A stretch of DNA of 18,584 nucleotides, taken from positions 1-18,584 of the forward strand of contig PBSR01000243.1 in the NCBI GenBank assembly GCA_002726335.1, written 5' to 3'. Made by a program: the position numbers and the translations under genes. The notes under the pieces were generated by a model that saw nothing but the letters and a program-made list of their open reading frames with translations, was not told the DNA's origin and made no database searches. This document shows positions 8,499 to 15,305 of the stretch, piece by piece (within the stretch, counting starts at the first letter, position 1; each line of letters begins with the position of its first letter). Source of the DNA: Gemmatimonadaceae bacterium. GTDB lineage: Bacteria; Latescibacterota; UBA2968; UBA8231.

Positions 8499-8590
8499 AC
8501 GCGTCCCATGGCTTGCCAAACACCGGGGGGCGTGAGTACCCTTGTAGAGATTTCCACAACTGCAACGCAAACAAGGAGTTACTCCTGTCG

Positions 8591-9244
8591 ATGAGATACT
8601 GGAATCGGGTTCTGTTGGGCACGGCCCTCGGCCTTGCCAGTCTGACCACGTCTCCGGCGAGTGCCGATCTGTCCGCCTTTATCGCCGCTGTCGGTTTTGA
8701 TGAGGACGCCAACCTTGAAGGTGCACCCGGAATCGGCCTGCGCTGGGGCAAGTCGAGCGGTATCCTCGGTGGTGAAACGTCGTTGATGATCTCGCGACCG
8801 GATCGCGAAGTCGCCACCATCGGTGGCACCGCCAGCGAGCCGGCGACGACGATCTTCTACGAGGGGCGGGTCCTGCTCAATATCCCTGTCGGTCAGATCA
8901 AGCCCTTCATCGGTATCGGTTATGGTGCCATCACGATCCTGCCCGGAAAACTTTCCGTGCCCGGGGCGGGTGATGTCGATAAGGCGACGCTGAACTCACT
9001 GTCGGAAACGTCGACCAACTCCGCCTTTTCCTATGGGGCCGGCGTGCGCTACGCCCTGAACGAGCGTCTCGATGCCCGCTTCGACCTGCGCCAGTACCAG
9101 GTGTTTTCTGTGACGGGTAAGGTGAAGGACCGGGCCCTCGAGGAACTGGCCGATGAGGCCGGTGTCAGCGATCTGCTCGGCGAAACGGAGGAGAACACGG
9201 TCACCTACAGCGAGATGTCGGTCGGCGTCGTCTTCCGCTTCTGA
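8591..9244 (+). CDS. Small outer-membrane beta-barrel protein
   Basis: The 217-residue protein begins with a signal peptide (MRYWNRVLLGTALGLASLTTSPASA, cut before DLSAF). The mature chain of about 190 residues has alternating hydrophobic strands: FIAAVGF, GIGLRWG, GGETSLMIS, TIFYEGRVLLNIPV, KPFIGIGYGAI, FSYGAGVRYAL, DARFDLRQYQVF and SEMSVGVVFRF. It ends in Phe, the usual signal for BAM-dependent insertion. The size and strand count fit an eight-stranded OmpA/OmpX/opacity-type barrel. ATG 8591 is taken as the start because the signal peptide begins there; AGGAG at 8574-8578 is about 12 bases upstream. The 92-bp gap before it is the only sizeable gap in this block, so the MCE operon promoter may lie there. 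The best match, TTGCCA at 8513 and TACCCT at 8537, is weak. Its TGA overlaps the ATG of the MlaE-like gene, which suggests a shared function. Confidence 0.8.
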   Translation: MRYWNRVLLGTALGLASLTTSPASADLSAFIAAVGFDEDANLEGAPGIGLRWGKSSGILGGETSLMISRPDREVATIGGTASEPATTIFYEGRVLLNIPVGQIKPFIGIGYGAITILPGKLSVPGAGDVDKATLNSLSETSTNSAFSYGAGVRYALNERLDARFDLRQYQVFSVTGKVKDRALEELADEAGVSDLLGETEENTVTYSEMSVGVVFRF

Positions 9245-10047
9245 TGGGAGCGTACCTGACCCCCTTCCAGGCCCTCGGGCAGCAGGTCATACGCACTGCT
9301 CTCGATGCCTGGCAGTTGCTCAGGTTCTCCCTCGGTTCCATCGTCGCCCTGGCCCGGTTCTTCAGTCGCAACGGCTTTCGAGCCTCGGCGCGGGTGACGA
9401 TGCAGCAGGTGTATTTCACCGGTCTCGAGGCGTTGCCGTTTCTCAGCCTGTTGTCACTGCTGCTCGGATCGACGGTGCTGGTGCAGTCGTTGCCGCAGTT
9501 GCAGGGAGTTGGGGCGGGAGAACTGATCGGCAAGATCCTCGTCATCTCCATCGTCCGCGAGCTGGGGCCCATCATCACCGCCATGGTTGTCATCACCCGA
9601 TCGGGTACGGCCATGGCCGCCGAGATGGCGACGAACCGGATCTCGGGTCAGGTCGAGGCCCTCGAGTCGATGGGGGTGGACGTGTTCCATTACCTGATCG
9701 CGCCGCGTGTCATCGGCGCCATGGTGGCCATGTTCTGCATGATCGTGTATTTCGATGTCGTCGCTCTGGTGGGCGGGTTTCTCGTGGCCAGTCTGCAGTT
9801 GACCATGCCGATCTCCGTCTACCTCGCCCAGATCTCCGATTCGCTGCAGCCTCTCGATCTCTACATCAGCCTGAGCAAGGGGATCCTTTTCGGTCTGGTG
9901 GTCAGTCTGTTCACCTGCTATCACGGTCTGCGCGCCAGGCGCGCTCCCTTCGAGGTGCCCATGGTTGCCCGTTCGGGTGTCATACAGGCAATGTTCTTCG
10001 TGTTCGTGTCGAGTGCCGTGCTTTCGGCCGGATTCTACTGGATCTGA
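9244..10047 (+). CDS. mlaE: MlaE-family ABC transporter permease
   Basis: The 267-residue inner-membrane protein is the length of MlaE/YrbE permeases, which with MlaF, MlaD and other partners move phospholipids between the two membranes. The family pattern runs through the centre: MQQVYFTGLEALPFLSLLSLLLG (interfacial helix and TM1), then ELGPIITAMVVITRSGTAMAAEMATNR, then the coupling helix region GQVEALESMGVDVFHYLIAPRV. Four or five further membrane segments follow. The usual E-Q-I-D-A-L in the coupling region appears as G-Q-V-E-A-L. The ATG at 9244 overlaps the stop of the barrel gene, and the ATPase gene starts five bases after its own stop. It is a clear MlaE-family member; whether it belongs to a canonical Mla system or to another MCE system is uncertain, so the symbol names the family. 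Confidence 0.93.
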   Translation: MGAYLTPFQALGQQVIRTALDAWQLLRFSLGSIVALARFFSRNGFRASARVTMQQVYFTGLEALPFLSLLSLLLGSTVLVQSLPQLQGVGAGELIGKILVISIVRELGPIITAMVVITRSGTAMAAEMATNRISGQVEALESMGVDVFHYLIAPRVIGAMVAMFCMIVYFDVVALVGGFLVASLQLTMPISVYLAQISDSLQPLDLYISLSKGILFGLVVSLFTCYHGLRARRAPFEVPMVARSGVIQAMFFVFVSSAVLSAGFYWI

Positions 10048-10052
10048 CTCGG

Positions 10053-10907
10053 ATGAACTGCGTCGAACTGCAGCAGGTCAGCCTGGCGGTGGATGGCCGC
10101 CAGTACCTCGATGGGGCGAGCCTGACCGTGGCCGTCGGGGAGTCGGTCGTCATCGCCGGCCTGCCCGGGTGTGGCAAGTCCTTTGTGCCCCGCCTCATCC
10201 TCGGTCTGCCGGGGATGGACAACGAGCAGGTCAGCCTGCAGGGCGAGGTCCTCGTCTCCGGCGCCAGTATGTCGGCACTGAGCCCGGCCGAGTTGCAGGC
10301 GCTGCGCCCGAGGATGGGCAGCATCATGCGCGACGGCGGTCTCATCGAGATCCTGGACATCCGCGCCAACGTGGCCCTGCCGCTGACCTACCACTACCGG
10401 GACCTGCTGGGGCCGGCCCAGATCCAGGTGCGCGTTGATGCCGTGCTCGACGATCTCCAGCTCACCCATCTCGGTGCCCCGGGAACCCGGCCCATCGCCC
10501 TCAATCGGGAGGAGCGCATCTATGTTTCGCTGGCGCGGGCGCTGGTCTGCGAACCTTTCCTGTTGCTCCTCGATGAGCCCTGCGCCGGACTGAGTCCGGG
10601 GTCGGCGTCTCGGTTGTGCAAACACGTATTCACCTACGAGCCATATTTCGTACCGCCCCTCCCGGACAGACCCGTGCCGGCAGCCGTCAACGGCCTGACC
10701 CGGCTTGTCACGACGGTAAACCTGGGTCCCTATCTCGACTCCGCCGATCGTTTTCTGCTGATGTGGGACGGGCGCTTCGAAGATCTCGGGGATCGTGCCG
10801 CGGTCCTTGGCAGCACCGATGATCGTGTCCGACAGTTGCTTGATTCTCGACCCGAGACGAGCACCGATCGAGAGCGGGAAACCCTGGCCGAGCCCGTCCA
10901 TGGCTGA
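10053..10907 (+). CDS. MlaF-like ABC ATP-binding subunit with degenerate catalytic motifs
   Basis: The 284-residue protein lies where mlaF is expected, between the permease and the MCE gene. Walker A is intact (GLPGCGKS, 36-43) and so is Walker B with its catalytic Glu (LLLLDEP, D174-E175). Three other elements that ABC ATPases need are changed. The Q-loop position, usually F-Q-x-G-A-L, reads MRDGGL, with Arg93 for Gln. The LSGGQ/M signature reads LNREE (150-154), and the switch T-H-D reads T-V-N (221-223), with Val for His. The D-loop also reads AGLSP instead of (S/A)-G-L-D-P. A proline-rich insert (YFVPPLPDRPVPAAV, about 198-212) sits between Walker B and the switch. The frame is open with no sign of decay and is tightly coupled at both ends, so it looks maintained. 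It probably binds ATP, but hydrolysis may be weak or noncanonical. Confidence 0.85.
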   Translation: MNCVELQQVSLAVDGRQYLDGASLTVAVGESVVIAGLPGCGKSFVPRLILGLPGMDNEQVSLQGEVLVSGASMSALSPAELQALRPRMGSIMRDGGLIEILDIRANVALPLTYHYRDLLGPAQIQVRVDAVLDDLQLTHLGAPGTRPIALNREERIYVSLARALVCEPFLLLLDEPCAGLSPGSASRLCKHVFTYEPYFVPPLPDRPVPAAVNGLTRLVTTVNLGPYLDSADRFLLMWDGRFEDLGDRAAVLGSTDDRVRQLLDSRPETSTDRERETLAEPVHG

Positions 10908-11880
10908 GTCCGTCGTCCGTCGGCCGCAGGAATCTCCCACGGTGCAGATCGGCGTGGGCCTGTTCGTCAGCGTCGCCGTGGCCGGCTTCATCTGGTTGCT
11001 GATCAGTCTGCGTCTGGGCCCGGAGCGTTATCCCCTGGTGGCCGAGTTCGATACTCTGGGCGGCATCAGCGAAGCGACCAAGGTCAAGCTGCGCGGGTTT
11101 GTCGTCGGGCAGGTGGAAGCCATCGAGTTCCGCCCGCTGGCGGGAGAGGGGGAGGCCCACTTCCTCGTCACCCTGGGCATCGAGAAGATCTATCCGGTAC
11201 CAACCGGCGTCTTTGCCGAGATCCGCGGCAGCGGTTTGGTGGGCGAGGCCCATGTTCATCTTGACGTCACCGCCGGCGACGGGCCACCGCTGCCTCCCGG
11301 GGCACATATCCGCGGGCAGTCCGACGAGACGATGAAAACGCTGATGGTGAAGATCCGGGAAGCGGCGCAGAAGCTCGGCGGCGCCGGCAAGGCCCTGCAC
11401 GACGCCGAGCTGGGCGACCGGCTCAGTGATCTCACCGGCAGTATTGCCCGGATCGCCGAGGACCTGGGCACGGTATCGCGCAGTGCCGACAGTCTGCTGC
11501 TGGCCGGTCGTCACGTCGTCGTCGACATGGAACCCGGAGTGGCACGGTCTCTGCAGAGCCTGGAGCGGACCATGTCCCGGCTGGCGCTGACGATGGCACG
11601 CACCGATACGCTGGTGGCGGCCACGAGCCAGGATGTGCAGGGCTCGGTGCGGGCCCTGCGTCAGGTGGTGGAGCGCGTCGATCTGTTGCTGGTGCGGGTG
11701 GATTCCCTCGTCGTCGGCAAGCAGGCACAGCTGAATGAGACGGTCGACAATGTGCACGCCACGTCAGCGGCGGTGCGCGAACTCACCGAGAATCCATGGA
11801 AACTCGTCATCGGCCGGGGGGACGGGCAGGTGGCTGAGGAGATGGGGGATCCGCCGGCCTCGAAGGAGGATCCCGAATGA
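10900..11880 (+). CDS. mlaD: MlaD-like MCE domain protein, inner-membrane anchored
   Basis: The 326-residue protein has one N-terminal membrane helix (about residues 16-37, IGVGLFVSVAVAGFIWLLIS). It is followed by an MCE domain at about 44-138: YPLVAEFDTLGGISEATKVKLRG, then VGQVEAIEF, then VPTGVFAEIRGSGLVGEAHVHL. The remainder (about 145-310) is largely helical, probably coiled coil, with many Leu/Val heptad-like spacings, so the chain is longer than E. coli MlaD (about 180) and more like MCE proteins that extend a helical stalk. MCE proteins form hexameric rings that bind or pass lipids in the periplasm. ATG 10900 overlaps the ATPase gene by eight bases. The last four bases (ATGA) contain the start of the next frame. 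mlaD is used as a family name; the substrate and the outer-membrane partner are not known. Confidence 0.9.
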   Translation: MAESVVRRPQESPTVQIGVGLFVSVAVAGFIWLLISLRLGPERYPLVAEFDTLGGISEATKVKLRGFVVGQVEAIEFRPLAGEGEAHFLVTLGIEKIYPVPTGVFAEIRGSGLVGEAHVHLDVTAGDGPPLPPGAHIRGQSDETMKTLMVKIREAAQKLGGAGKALHDAELGDRLSDLTGSIARIAEDLGTVSRSADSLLLAGRHVVVDMEPGVARSLQSLERTMSRLALTMARTDTLVAATSQDVQGSVRALRQVVERVDLLLVRVDSLVVGKQAQLNETVDNVHATSAAVRELTENPWKLVIGRGDGQVAEEMGDPPASKEDPE

Positions 11881-12242
11881 TGAGTGTGGCCGCCGGGGCG
11901 ATTCATCAACTTCGCGGGCGCCTGCTCGAGGCGCGTCGCACCTGCAATCATGATGCTCTGCCCGGACTGATCGACGACGTGCAGGCCCTGGCTCGCCGGG
12001 GGTATCGCTGTTGTCTCGTCGACTTCGAGGCCTGCCTGCCCGCCTTCTACGTCCGCGTCCTCGGTTTCGAGCGGGCGCGCGTGGAAGCGGAACTGGAGTT
12101 TCCCATCGAGCCGAGCTTGCGGGCCGTGCAGCACGTGCCCCTGTCACATCTGGTCGACTACAACGAGGCCGATCCGCAGCACATCCGGACGATCTACCAC
12201 AGTCTGTCGCCCTTCCTGCACCACCGGCGCGCCCGCCTGTAG
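11877..12242 (+). CDS. Conserved-looking protein of unknown function in the MCE operon
   Basis: This is a 121-residue soluble protein with no signal peptide or membrane segment. I do not recognise a family. It begins with a helical part (AAGAIHQLRGRLLEARRTC, DALPGLIDDVQALARRGYRCC) and continues with a mixed region containing VEAELEFPIEPSLRAVQHVPLSHLVDYNEADP and a basic C terminus (HHRRARL). Two adjacent Cys lie at 45-46. It starts at ATG 11877, overlapping the TGA of the MCE gene by four bases (ATGA); another ATG follows at 11880. GAAGGAGGATCCC just upstream supplies a ribosome site. Translational coupling to the MCE gene makes it a candidate accessory factor for lipid transport, but that rests on position alone. 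Confidence 0.7.
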   Translation: MMSVAAGAIHQLRGRLLEARRTCNHDALPGLIDDVQALARRGYRCCLVDFEACLPAFYVRVLGFERARVEAELEFPIEPSLRAVQHVPLSHLVDYNEADPQHIRTIYHSLSPFLHHRRARL

Positions 12243-12263: not shown

Positions 12264-12365
12264 ATGAAGTCCATCACCGATGAAAGGCCGGCTTCGATGG
12301 CAGCCTGGTGGGCGGTGGCCACCGCGCTCTTCGTGACCAGCCTCCTGCTTTTCGCCGTCGCCTGA
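12264..12365 (+). CDS. Possible 33-residue single-pass membrane peptide
   Basis: A short open frame fills the gap between the 121-residue protein and the channel gene. It encodes MKSITDERPASMAAWW followed by an uninterrupted hydrophobic stretch of about 20 residues (AVATALFVTSLLLFAVA) and then a stop. This is the profile of a small single-pass membrane peptide. Its TGA at 12363-12365 lies within the GAGGA that probably serves the next gene's TTG start at 12377, so the two could be translationally coupled. The first ATG has no obvious ribosome site; an internal ATG at 12297 has GAAAGG about 11 bases upstream and would leave only the hydrophobic part. A frame this short can arise by chance. Confidence 0.35.
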   Translation: MKSITDERPASMAAWWAVATALFVTSLLLFAVA

Positions 12366-12376
12366 GGATCGAGATC

Positions 12377-13435
12377 TTGACCGAGACACCCGACAGCCCC
12401 GCAACCTGTGCTTTCGTCCGCGCCGACGGCAGTCTCTGCCCCGGACCTCTGGAGGGGGAGGGTGAGATGTGTTTCTGGCATGACCCGGAGGCATCGAAGG
12501 AGACCGACGACCTGCGTGGTCGTCTCCAGGAGTGGGCCGAATCAGGCGAGTCGATGGAGGGCTTCATCCTGCGCTATGGCCGTCTGGAGGGTTTGCGGCT
12601 GAGCATGAAACCGAGTCGTGACCTGCGCGGGGCCAACTTGTTCAAGGCATCTCTGCAGGGCGCCAGCCTCTACAATCTGGACTTCTCCGGAGCCGATCTG
12701 TCGAAGGCGGACCTGGCCGGTGCCAACCTCAACGAGTCGGTGATGACCGGGGTCAACCTGCTCGGCGCCAACTTCGACGGCACGCGCCTGGAACGGGTCG
12801 AGTGGGGCGGTCCCTGCATCAACGAGACACAAGCCTACCAGGCACAGAGCCAGGGCCGTCCTGACGAGGCGCAGGCGTCCTTCGAGGAAGCGGAGGAGAT
12901 CTACCGCGTCCTGCGACGGGCCTACGACGGCGCCGGGCGCTTCGAACAGGCTGGGGGATTCTTCAGCCGCGAGATGAAGATGCGGCGCATGTTGATGCCG
13001 CGGTTTTCCGGGGGCCGCTTCTGGTCGAAACTCGTCGATGTGTTCTGTGCCTACGGGGAGAGCCCGCCGCGAGTCATCGTCTCGGCCATGACGCTCAATC
13101 TCGTCGTTGCCGTCATCTTCTTTCTCTGCGGCGTCAATGGGCCGAATGGGCCGCTGCGTCTCGATCCGGCCCTGGGGGTGCTGGCCAACGTGGAGATGTA
13201 CCTGAACTGCCTCTACTACACGGTCGTCACCTTCACCACGCTCGGCTACGGCGAGATCACGCCGCCTACCTTGTTCACCCGACACCTGGCATCCACCCAC
13301 ACCACGCTCGGCTACGGCGAGATCACGCCGCCTACCTTGTTCACCCGACACCTGGCATCCACCCACGCCTTTGCCGGCGCCTTCATGATGGCCATGTTCG
13401 TCACCGTCTTCGGCAAGAAAATGACCCGTGGCTGA
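12377..13435 (+). CDS. Zn-knuckle / pentapeptide-repeat / two-TM potassium-channel fusion with duplicated filter
   Basis: The 352-residue protein has several parts. Residues 11-35 carry a C-x9-C-x10-C-x2-H cluster (CAFV…CPGP…CFWHDP) that looks like a small zinc knuckle. Residues about 82-139 are pentapeptide repeats of the A(D/N)LxX kind (LRGANL, LQGASL, FSGADL, LAGANL, LLGANF), forming a right-handed beta-helix. A helical linker follows (about 150-205). The C-terminal part is a 2-TM ion-channel domain: TM1 at about 232-252, pore helix NCLYYTVVTFTTLGYGE with the K+ filter TLGYG, and TM2 at 331-347. The 22 residues from TTLGYGEITP to LASTH occur twice in tandem, which would put a second filter before TM2. 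The start is TTG 12377, with GAGGA eight bases upstream; no ATG fits. The next gene's GTG overlaps its end by eight bases. Confidence 0.8.
   Translation: MTETPDSPATCAFVRADGSLCPGPLEGEGEMCFWHDPEASKETDDLRGRLQEWAESGESMEGFILRYGRLEGLRLSMKPSRDLRGANLFKASLQGASLYNLDFSGADLSKADLAGANLNESVMTGVNLLGANFDGTRLERVEWGGPCINETQAYQAQSQGRPDEAQASFEEAEEIYRVLRRAYDGAGRFEQAGGFFSREMKMRRMLMPRFSGGRFWSKLVDVFCAYGESPPRVIVSAMTLNLVVAVIFFLCGVNGPNGPLRLDPALGVLANVEMYLNCLYYTVVTFTTLGYGEITPPTLFTRHLASTHTTLGYGEITPPTLFTRHLASTHAFAGAFMMAMFVTVFGKKMTRG
13235..13366 (+). repeat. Perfect 66-bp tandem duplication inside the channel gene
   Basis: Two identical 66-bp units, 13235-13300 and 13301-13366, lie head to tail. Each encodes 22 residues from TTLGYGEITP to HLASTH, so the reading frame is preserved. 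No base differs between the copies, which means either a very recent duplication or an assembly artefact. Removing one copy gives a normal 2-TM channel: pore helix, a single TLGYG filter, then TM2. Confidence 0.95.
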
Positions 13436-14123
13436 GCGCTTCCGAACCATCTCGGCAGCCTTGGGACTCCTCCTGGTGCTGTGGGCGACGGCAACGCCGG
13501 CGCAGACGCCGACCCAGGCGCAGCAGTACTTTCTGCAGGGCAGGCAGTATCATCTCGGTGAGGGCGGCAAGAAGGTCGATGTCGAAAAAGCTCTGCGGTA
13601 CTACCTGCAGGCGCTGCGTGCCGATCCGCAGTTCTACGAAGCCCATGTGAACGCCGGCAAGGCCTACTACGCCCGCAAGGACTACGTGCGGGCGATCAAG
13701 CACTTCAATGCTGCCATCATCAGCGCCCGCGGCCGAGATGATATCTCTGCGCAGGCCGAAGCCAGGATTTCTTCGGATATGGGTGGCTGCTATTACAAGG
13801 CGGGCAAACTGGCCGATGCGGAGAAGTGGTTCCGCGGAGCCGTCGGCCTCGACCCCTCCTTGGTGGAGGCGCACTACAATCTGATCAACCTGCTGTTTTC
13901 TGATGAACGGGAGGAGGAGGCGATTCGCCAGATGGCCATCGCTACCGAGGCGGCACCCAGCGAGCGTTACGGAATCTTCCGTGGCCGGCAGGCGACGCAG
14001 GAGAGCAAGGCCGAATCCGATCGCCTGATACTGATCGCCGTGGCTGCGGCGATCGGCGGCGCAGTACTTATCACGATCGTCTATTCCTTGCGCGGGGGCT
14101 CCACCAAAGGGACGAGGAAGTAA
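13428..14123 (+). CDS. Exported TPR-repeat protein with C-terminal membrane anchor
   Basis: The 231-residue protein has an N-terminal signal sequence (about residues 6-26, TISAALGLLLVLWATATPAQ). At least three tetratricopeptide repeats follow: QQYFLQGRQYHL…ALRYYLQALRADPQFYEAHVNAGKAYYARKDYVRAIKHFNAA, then DMGGCYYKAGKLADAEKWFRGAVGLDPSLVEAHYNLINLLF. Near the end is a hydrophobic helix (about 200-221, LILIAVAAAIGGAVLITIVYSL) with a basic tail (GGSTKGTRK), so the TPR domain probably faces the periplasm and is tethered to the inner membrane. TPRs are protein-binding scaffolds, and the partner is unknown. GTG 13428 overlaps the channel gene by eight bases, so it is likely translated with it and is the last gene of the MCE-linked run. 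No clear terminator follows before the riboswitch promoter. Confidence 0.8.
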   Translation: MAERFRTISAALGLLLVLWATATPAQTPTQAQQYFLQGRQYHLGEGGKKVDVEKALRYYLQALRADPQFYEAHVNAGKAYYARKDYVRAIKHFNAAIISARGRDDISAQAEARISSDMGGCYYKAGKLADAEKWFRGAVGLDPSLVEAHYNLINLLFSDEREEEAIRQMAIATEAAPSERYGIFRGRQATQESKAESDRLILIAVAAAIGGAVLITIVYSLRGGSTKGTRK

Positions 14124-14168: not shown

Positions 14169-14338
14169 ACGGTTCCACGGTGCCCTGAAGACGAGCCCCC
14201 GGCTCACGCCGGGAGTTGACGTTTTCGGGGAGAATAGGGAAGGGCGGTGAAAAGCCGCCGCGGCCCCGCCACTGTGTCCGGTGCCGTCTCGAGCGATCGG
14301 GATGGACGCCGGGAGCCAGGAGACCTGCCTGGAACCGT
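14169..14338 (+). promoter_or_regulatory. Cobalamin (B12) riboswitch aptamer
   Basis: The leader carries the conserved blocks of the cobalamin class in the right order: GGTGCCC at 14179-14185, a CCCGGC/GCCGGG hairpin (14198-14213), AGGGAAGGGCGGTGAAAAGCC (about 14236-14256), CCCCGCCACTGT (14264-14275) and AGCCAGGAGACCTGCC (14314-14329). The ends form a perfect nine-base closing stem P1: ACGGTTCCA (14169-14177) with TGGAACCGT (14330-14338). Binding of adenosylcobalamin or a related corrinoid normally reduces expression of the genes that follow, which here are B12 uptake and processing genes. No protein frame in this stretch is credible. Confidence 0.95.
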
Positions 14339-14471
14339 CGGGTGCATTTCGACACGCCTTCGCGGGAAGGCAGACCCGGGCTCTTGTGATTGGTGGCGGC
14401 ATGTTGCCCCAGCCGGTTCAACGCCCCGTCTGCATGTCTGGCGACTGGGAACGGTGGAACCGGGAAAAAAC
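14339..14471 (+). promoter_or_regulatory. Predicted riboswitch expression platform (ribosome-site sequestering leader)
   Basis: This 133-base leader between the aptamer and the btuD start holds no gene. CCGGTTC (14413-14419) can pair with GAACCGG (14457-14463), which overlaps the weak GGGA ribosome site (14462-14465) just before ATG 14472. The same CGGTTC (14414-14419) can instead pair with GAACCG (14332-14337), the 3' strand of P1. P1 formation and freeing of the ribosome site are therefore mutually exclusive, as expected of a translational switch. A smaller hairpin, GCCTTC/GAAGGC (14356-14371), lies between. No T tract typical of a transcription terminator is present. The pairing is read directly; its function is inferred. 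Confidence 0.5.
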
Positions 14472-15305
14472 ATGCTCCTCGACGTGACCGGCATCCGCGC
14501 CGGATACTATCCTGAAAACCCTGTTCTTGATGACGTCGACCTGCGGCTGTCCGCCGGGGGCTTCCTCGGTCTCATCGGCCCGAACGGCTCGGGGAAGAGC
14601 ACCCTTCTGCGCGTGCTGGCCGGGGTGCTCACGCCCTGGGCAGGGCAGGTCTGTCTCGACGGTGCCAACGTCCTCGACCTGAGCCGCCGGCAGCTGGCGC
14701 GCACGATCGCCGTCGTTCCGCAGGAGATTCTGAGTCCCTTCGCCTTCACCGCCGGAGAGATCGTCGCCATGGGACGGCATCCCTATCTGCCAAGATTTGG
14801 TGGACTCGGGGCCGAGGATATGAGCGCCGTGACCGACGCCATGGAGCGCACGGGCACGGCACAGCTTGCCTCGCGCAGTATTCTCGAACTGTCCGGCGGA
14901 GAGCGGCAACGTGTCGTGATTGCCCGAGCCCTGGCGCAGCAGCCCCGACTGCTGCTGCTCGACGAGCCCACCAACCATCTCGACATCAATCACCAGGTCG
15001 AAGTCCTCGATCTGCTCTACGATCTCAACCGCAACGACGGCCTGGCCATCGTCTGCGTCACGCACGATCTCAACGCTGCCGCCGAGTACACCGACCACGT
15101 CGTACTGATGGCACCCGGCGGGCGGGTCCACGCTGCAGGGCCTCCAGGTGACGTGATCACAGCCGATCATGTGGAGGCCGTGTACGGCATCCGCGTCGCC
15201 GTCATCGACACAGCCGGGCGGCCCAGGATCACGCCCTGGTCCCGTCGTCATCCGCAGATGCCCGTTCCTGAAACCATCCCCGTTGCCCCGGAGACGTGCC
15301 CGTGA
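14472..15305 (+). CDS. btuD: Cobalamin ABC importer, ATP-binding subunit
   Basis: The 277-residue cytoplasmic ATPase is of the iron-siderophore/B12 (FecE/BtuD) type. Walker A is GPNGSGKS (36-43), the Q-loop Gln is 84 (VVPQE), the signature is LSGGE (140-144), Walker B is LLLLDEP (160-166) and the switch His is 198 (THD). GRHPYLPRFGG (about 101-111) is the family's typical block after the Q-loop. The B12 assignment rests on the cobalamin riboswitch in front and the BtuF, adenosyltransferase and CobQ genes behind, since this subfamily also serves siderophores and heme. I chose ATG 14472 because the homologous region begins there; the open frame upstream overlaps the riboswitch. All motifs are intact, unlike the MlaF-like ATPase in the same window. 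Confidence 0.93.
   Translation: MLLDVTGIRAGYYPENPVLDDVDLRLSAGGFLGLIGPNGSGKSTLLRVLAGVLTPWAGQVCLDGANVLDLSRRQLARTIAVVPQEILSPFAFTAGEIVAMGRHPYLPRFGGLGAEDMSAVTDAMERTGTAQLASRSILELSGGERQRVVIARALAQQPRLLLLDEPTNHLDINHQVEVLDLLYDLNRNDGLAIVCVTHDLNAAAEYTDHVVLMAPGGRVHAAGPPGDVITADHVEAVYGIRVAVIDTAGRPRITPWSRRHPQMPVPETIPVAPETCP

Follow-up and report, generated by a model that had tools for sequence, protein, structure and literature searches.

A clade of MCE lipid systems in Latescibacterota and other genomes pairs MlaE permeases with MlaF-like subunits lacking catalytic and trans-site residues, suggesting transporters that work without ATP hydrolysis

An MlaF-like protein encoded in the window (the whole 18,584-nucleotide stretch of DNA analysed) is missing the Q-loop Gln, the LSGG signature, the D-loop Asp and the switch His, and has both Walker A and Walker B. 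Alignments show that one clade of MlaE permeases, found in Latescibacterota and in other genomes, pairs with such subunits lacking catalytic and trans-site residues, that the degenerate subunits mostly retain the residues of the cleft opposite the MlaE coupling helix, and that some branches have no P-loop. Within the family, the relatives appear to be an old and widespread branch that is still being maintained, a pattern suggesting transporters that work without ATP hydrolysis. Our preferred explanation, with a probability of roughly 0.6, is that the ATPase of an ancient MCE lipid-system branch has turned into a non-hydrolysing scaffold or gate, with lipid flow passive or otherwise driven. The fuller proposition, that in several phyla the ABC pumps of this branch became ATP-independent lipid conduits with a pseudo-ATPase as scaffold or gate, the P-loop lost in some and the coupling helix changed, we hold to be evenly balanced between true and false.

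Under the preferred explanation, the operon would be an MCE lipid system of the MlaE-F-D type that has given up ATP hydrolysis, the reading frame would encode its nucleotide-binding subunit, and this degenerate, presumably non-hydrolysing subunit would act as a scaffold or gate beneath the MlaE dimer. Where the P-loop is intact, as in the branch of the window protein, ATP-Mg may remain bound as a structural or regulatory ligand; branches without a P-loop should not bind ATP in the usual way. Lipids would pass the MlaE and MCE tunnel passively, down an inter-membrane gradient, or by a drive other than the degenerate ATPase. The window system is one copy of its kind, which in most of the genomes checked stands alongside a canonical system.

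The gene is part of a tightly packed operon with the following members:

8513..9244, + strand, outer-membrane beta-barrel protein, upstream of MlaE
9244..10047, + strand, MlaE-type permease, 267 aa, partner of the degenerate ATPase (PF02405, 199.7 bits)
10053..10907, + strand, predicted pseudo-ATPase subunit, an MlaF-like ABC protein of 284 aa (ORF translation, Pfam, predicted structure)
10900..11880, + strand, MCE/MlaD protein, 326 aa (PF02470, 53.4 bits)
11877..12242, + strand, 121-aa protein with no Pfam match, overlapping the MCE stop

The Pfam scan thus places the ATPase frame in an MCE-transporter context, flanked by the MlaE permease and the MCE/MlaD gene. The beta-barrel and MlaE genes overlap at stop and start, the ATPase gene follows MlaE after a gap of 5 bases, the MCE gene starts within the end of the ATPase gene, and the 121-aa gene starts within the end of the MCE gene. 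The order permease, ATPase, MCE is kept in the loci of relatives, a beta-barrel gene occupies the equivalent position at 6 of 10 related loci, and the 121-aa protein, possibly an extra subunit, has counterparts in 8 of 10 related Latescibacterota loci (L058 stops short of its expected position). Among the 20 window ORFs scanned with Pfam, no second, complementary canonical nucleotide-binding domain for a heterodimer was found in the operon; the sole other ABC_tran match (14247-15305) has a periplasmic binding protein and a FecCD permease as neighbours. The same scan gave no MlaB-, MlaC-, LetA- or PqiA-type match, the permease being MlaE. A TPR gene lies at 13428-14123, three genes after the MCE gene, and in the degenerate loci L195, L198, L199 and L203 the MCE gene is followed by one with TPR repeats. 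The pentapeptide/ion-channel ORF at 12308-13435 contains a perfect 66-bp tandem duplication (13234-13366) that doubles its TTLGYGE segment; the L062 orthologue is single-copy, so the duplication is recent or an assembly artefact.

The motifs of the window protein read as follows:

10158..10184, + strand, Walker A GLPGCGKSF, residues 36-44, kept (motif alignment)
10320..10346, + strand, degenerate Q-loop SIMRDGGLI, residues 90-98, Arg93 replacing Gln (alignment with canonical MlaF)
10500..10514, + strand, degenerate signature LNREE, residues 150-154, replacing LSGGM (alignment with canonical MlaF)
10560..10577, + strand, Walker B LLLLDE, residues 170-175, kept (motif alignment)
10584..10598, + strand, degenerate D-loop AGLSP, residues 178-182, Ser181 replacing Asp (alignment with canonical MlaF)
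10635..10691, + strand, Pro-rich insert, residues 195-213, absent from some clade members
10710..10721, + strand, degenerate switch TTVN, residues 220-223, Val222 replacing His (alignment with canonical MlaF)

The first-pass annotation had described this same combination of intact Walker motifs and degenerate Q-loop, signature, D-loop and switch, a Pro-rich insert after Walker B, and an intact frame beside an MlaE-type permease and an MCE protein, and the alignment, ORF and Pfam results bear it out on each point. The insert, located between the D-loop helix and the H-loop strand, was considered as a family mark and rejected, because it is missing in clade members P0028, L053 and L055.

The single Pfam match of the 284-residue protein is ABC_tran (PF00005, 57.9 bits, cut-off 25), and its AlphaFold model (pLDDT 90.9, pTM 0.88, residues 270-284 low) predicts that the ABC fold is retained. 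The best Foldseek match of the model is MlaF (6xbd); by VIA-align Z, MlaF is tied with other ABC proteins, e.g. MetN. Against the MlaF equivalog NF008809 (PRK11831) the protein scores 60.0 bits, under the curated cut-off of 441, which is narrow, since the canonical MlaF of genome G001 (157.9 bits) also falls below it. E. coli MlaF variants K47A and E170Q are reported to fail to complement (PMC7367683), and a subunit without the signature, D-loop Asp, Gln and His should therefore not power the canonical cycle. Because it has both Walker motifs, including the catalytic Glu, the window protein, a predicted pseudo-ATPase, may still hydrolyse ATP slowly or in an unusual manner. Walker B variants of Mycobacterium tuberculosis MceG reportedly destabilise Mce1 (PMC9947336); loss of hydrolysis is thus harmful in a canonical MCE system, which counts against the preferred explanation.

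A search of 5.8 billion proteins returned 3298 matches, the best 120 of which, as listed, include a tight group of 28 (query included) whose other members are 47-71% identical to the query; outside it, identity among the matches listed drops to 39% or less. The named members of the group are Latescibacterota. The Gln, GG and His are missing in 28/28, P0009 retains the D-loop Asp, and the replacement signature LNREER is largely conserved. The only close locus in the GTDB contig scan was L001, from Candidatus Latescibacterota UBA8231, with the same gene order as the window. Strong matches (>220 bits; next best 134 bits) occur in 9 of 64 Latescibacterota genomes, and all nine genes adjoin an MlaE. 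When the neighbouring ATPase was read at 80 MlaE places from 58 of these 64 genomes, 63 were canonical, 10 degenerate (the nine plus L066, G020:C77, which has Ser in place of the Walker A Lys) and 2 truncated, with 4 places having no ATPase found alongside and 1 (L082) no MlaE call. The GG and His are missing in 11/11 Latescibacterota-type loci, the window counted; L049 retains the Q-loop Gln. The canonical MlaE at L003 (G001:C282, 730-1836) has 368 aa, vs 267 aa for the degenerate-system MlaE of the window, and its extra N-terminal part is a putative STAS domain.

A profile search of the protein database (5817 matches) contributed 17 further clade members among the best 120 listed. The 45 clade proteins from the listed matches lack the GG in 45/45, the Gln in 44/45 (P0122 retains it) and the His in 44/45, one of the 44 being an alignment gap; P0132 has a His at the switch position, a counterpoint to the preferred explanation. 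In 27 of the 45, Asp or Ala replaces the catalytic Glu, and three of the 45 retain the D-loop Asp. Walker A Lys is present in 44/45 (the other is a gap) and Walker B Asp in 45/45.

Outside Latescibacterota, related MlaE permeases (A6) were used to search 386 genomes around G001, giving 45 places in 45 genomes, 11 of them Latescibacterota and 34 others that were examined. At 18 of these 34 the ATPase-like gene next to MlaE is degenerate; at the other 16 it has the switch His, with Asp replacing the catalytic Glu in one of them (L244). LSGG occurs in 0/18, and 10/18 have no GxxxxGK[ST] anywhere in frame. Pfam, run on seven of the ten P-loop-less genes, found ABC_tran in six, including L212 below the cut-off, and no match in L211; the third gene is an MlaD match in 10/10 loci tested, L212 lying exactly at the cut-off. 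Loss is graded: L205 is missing just the His and one signature Gly, L198 additionally has no Glu, and L194 additionally has no P-loop. Near the degenerate MCE locus L201, a glycerophosphodiester phosphodiesterase gene (250-1143) is a possible hint at phospholipid substrates.

A joint set of 134 loci comprised the window, the 80 Latescibacterota regions and 53 others (the 34 A6 loci and 19 controls hand-picked from ~155 best MlaE places in the 386 genomes); 126 were used after 1 without an MlaE call, 5 without an adjacent ATPase found and 2 truncated ones were dropped. The 29 loci without the switch His include four assigned by alignment gap, where the loss is not directly read (L200, L206, L210, L212), and 29/126 is not a frequency because the 53 loci were chosen partly for likeness to degenerate permeases. 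The other 97 have the switch His, by which the canonical class of MlaE-adjacent ATPases was defined, and carry Gln in 97/97, D-loop Asp in 97/97, GG in 96/97 and Glu in 96/97. In an ATPase tree built without the motif columns, from which loci L194-L212 were left out, a single branch separates the 43 degenerate rows used from the rest (SH-aLRT 99), and P0031 and P0034 in this grouping keep Gln. Checked against convergence as its cause, the grouping thus survived removal of the motif columns. The inner branching is unsure, since the Latescibacterota-type group alone required 2 changes and long branches are common.

These patterns bear on a special case of the preferred explanation, with which its probability overlaps, namely that non-hydrolytic ATP binding opens or closes the lipid path in step with cellular energy status. 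In its favour, both the clade and the Verrucomicrobia/Acidobacteria-type proteins described below (Lys 100/101, Walker B Asp 101/101) retain the half-site that binds ATP-Mg; against it, an ATP sandwich without the signature motif has no known trans clamp, and sister branches exist without a P-loop. We regard a regulatory switch as possible and lean against it.

The permease has changed at its contact with the ATPase:

9622..9681, + strand, MlaE coupling helix EMATNRISGQVEALESMGVD (alignment with E. coli MlaE)

E. coli MlaE residues Arg142, Ser131, Gln128, Glu127 and Met135 are reported to contact MlaF Glu112, Arg157, Leu96, Arg52 and Tyr108, respectively (PMC7784689). The window MlaE has Gly135 at the Glu127 position and Asn131 at the Met123 position, and the same replacements are found in all Latescibacterota-type permeases (Glu127 to Gly 11/11, Met123 to Asn 11/11); canonical MlaE rows have Glu127 in 68/69 and Met123 in 68/69, with one row poorly aligned. 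Over the joint set, Glu127 is lost in 27/29 degenerate systems (to G, H, D, R, N or Q) vs 1/97 canonical ones, where 96 MlaE keep it and L224 has Gln. The Fisher p of 5e-24 for degenerate ATPase against Glu127 loss is not independent evidence, because the link has a single evolutionary origin; the 29 degenerate-system MlaE form one side of a branch (SH-aLRT 100). Glu127 loss as an obligatory feature was rejected, the degenerate systems L194 and L196 retaining Glu127. On the ATPase side, residues equivalent to MlaF Leu96 and Arg157 are present in 45/45 clade proteins, and docking to MlaE is therefore probably retained; in degenerate loci outside Latescibacterota the Leu96 equivalent is found in 15/18 and the Arg157 equivalent in 16/18.

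The changed helix also weighs on the idea that the operon MlaE is driven in trans by the canonical MlaF of a second Mla-like system, either as a homodimer or as a heterodimer with the degenerate subunit as regulator. Canonical MlaE-MlaF pairs are indeed present in 9/10 Latescibacterota genomes with a degenerate locus, a counterpoint to the preferred explanation as this MlaF could act in trans, and in 9 of the 11 other degenerate-locus genomes whose second MlaE was examined (in the second system of G169 the ATPase is near-canonical, with LSVGQ, and G197 has an MlaE with no ATPase found alongside). Sharing has a precedent in Mce1 and Mce4, which reportedly share MceG (PMC9947336). The coupling helix, however, differs from that of canonical paralogues at the otherwise near-invariant Glu127 and Met123, the degenerate gene is retained beside its own MlaE under selection, and a heterodimer would have both sites impaired, because the degenerate subunit has lost catalytic residues and signature alike. 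In the exceptional genome, G053, neither a second MlaE nor a clear canonical MlaF was found (best NF008809 match 132 bits), in an assembly that may be incomplete. Borrowing, which the first-pass annotation had proposed as one option, is thus kept alive by the canonical MlaF in 9/10 checked Latescibacterota hosts and spoken against by the changed coupling helix, and we consider it unlikely. Its other suggestions, a transporter driven differently or one with ATP in a structural or regulatory ligand role, agree at the sequence level with the conservation across the clade, the purifying selection, the kept order with MlaE and MCE, and the coupling-helix change.

We give still less credence to an unorthodox active ATPase, in which Arg93, the NREER signature and Glu175 would build a new hydrolytic site. 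The persistence of Walker A Lys and Walker B Asp in the clade and the largely conserved substitute signature LNREER would suit it; against it, the position of Glu175 is Asp or Ala in 27/45, and no common new site is seen because the substitutes vary among branches and related branches have no P-loop.

The dN/dS values show the Latescibacterota ATPase genes to be under purifying selection, at 0.19-0.20 (L060/L062), 0.33-0.39 (L053/L058), 0.14 (window/L048) and 0.11 (L048/L062), dS being saturated in the latter two pairs. Isolated decay or sequencing error has a negligible probability, given that the 27 nearest proteins also lack Gln, LSGG and His, that GG and His are missing from every Latescibacterota-type locus, that no stop codons occur in the nine Latescibacterota genome copies, and that dN/dS is 0.1-0.4. 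The early judgement that the change was probably not decay therefore holds, on clade-wide loss, purifying selection and conserved order with MlaE and MCE; the alignment it had called for finds the Gln, GG and His changes conserved across the clade, and the close relatives with canonical motifs that would have pointed to error do not occur among the nearest 28. In the Latescibacterota type, MlaE is better conserved than its ATPase partner in 35/35 pairs (mean identity 72.6 vs 48.1%; 9 of 11 loci, one of 36 pairs failing the length filter), whereas in canonical loci, represented by 28 hand-picked ones, the ATPase is more conserved than MlaE in 263/378 pairs (means 46.9% MlaE, 49.3% ATPase).

Among known MCE systems, LetAB is ATPase-free and uses the membrane protein LetA, and PqiABC is reported to be ATPase-free as well, using PqiA. 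These resemble the proposed system in being MCE lipid conduits apparently without an ATPase of their own, but rely on LetA/PqiA membrane proteins where the window system retains an ABC permease and a predicted pseudo-ATPase. MlaFEDB of E. coli and other Proteobacteria shares with the window the MlaE permease, MlaF-type fold, MCE/MlaD gene and Leu96/Arg157-equivalent cleft residues; unlike it, the window system has no catalytic and trans-site motifs, no MlaE Glu127, a longer MCE protein and, in the 20 ORFs scanned, no MlaB- or MlaC-type Pfam match. The three-gene MlaEFD of Veillonella parvula is likewise reported as a minimal MlaE-F-D set with a long MlaD, but its mlaF is reportedly very similar to that of model diderms whereas the window mlaF is degenerate (PMC10665443). 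ABC exporters with one degenerate nucleotide site, which has a structural role, are well known and keep one canonical site per dimer (PMC7756269), whereas a window-type homodimer would have none. One study that surveyed 1083 genomes for Mla components reportedly identified MlaF by synteny, cited uncertainty in MlaF annotation and noted Gracilicutes duplications; the section reporting this makes no mention of degenerate motifs (PMC10665443). A literature search of top-ranked matches, with most subscription papers outside its reach, found no published description of a degenerate MlaF group.

The direction of MCE lipid movement and the contribution of ATP hydrolysis are debated, and one review bears the title 'Forward or backward, that is the question'. 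Natural MlaE-MCE systems without a working ATPase, sharing many of their genomes with canonical paralogues, would be a ready-made test; the loci stand at different degrees of ATPase loss, the Latescibacterota-type permease meanwhile being strongly constrained. The finding also matters for annotation, as five of the nearest proteins (P0004, P0007, P0008, P0012 and P0015) carry the plain name MlaF ATPase subunit in one source, JGI.

The best 120 of the 5817 profile matches listed also include 101 MlaF-like proteins of another kind (P0111 and P0138-P0239, the canonical-looking P0141 and P0206 excluded), a Verrucomicrobia/Acidobacteria-type family placed by sequence alone. Its four named members are from Verrucomicrobia, Verrucomicrobiales, Pedosphaera (Verrucomicrobiota) and Candidatus Sulfopaludibacter (Acidobacteriota). 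The catalytic Glu position is Asn in 89/101, Asp in 9, Ser in 2 and Thr in 1; the GG and His are missing in 101/101, the Gln is kept in 22/101 and the D-loop Asp in 72/101. Locus searches for this family scored 6 candidates per genome in 386 relatives of G001, where best matches were <=159 bits and the 30 returned loci were all canonical-looking, and 8 per genome in 290 relatives of G092, where nothing was found under E 1e-48 in a run without a positive control. From plasmids and phages, the matches listed were all remote ABC proteins (<36% identity). Three loci matched in viral contigs, among them L161, a canonical MlaF, and query set A2 found no relative there. The family is marked by LLLLDNP, an RNWQKR-type signature and a conserved WW pair. 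Tyr at position 113 is present in 101/101 of this family, 45/45 clade proteins, 11/11 Latescibacterota-type loci and 14/18 other degenerate loci, vs 0/97 canonical ATPases.
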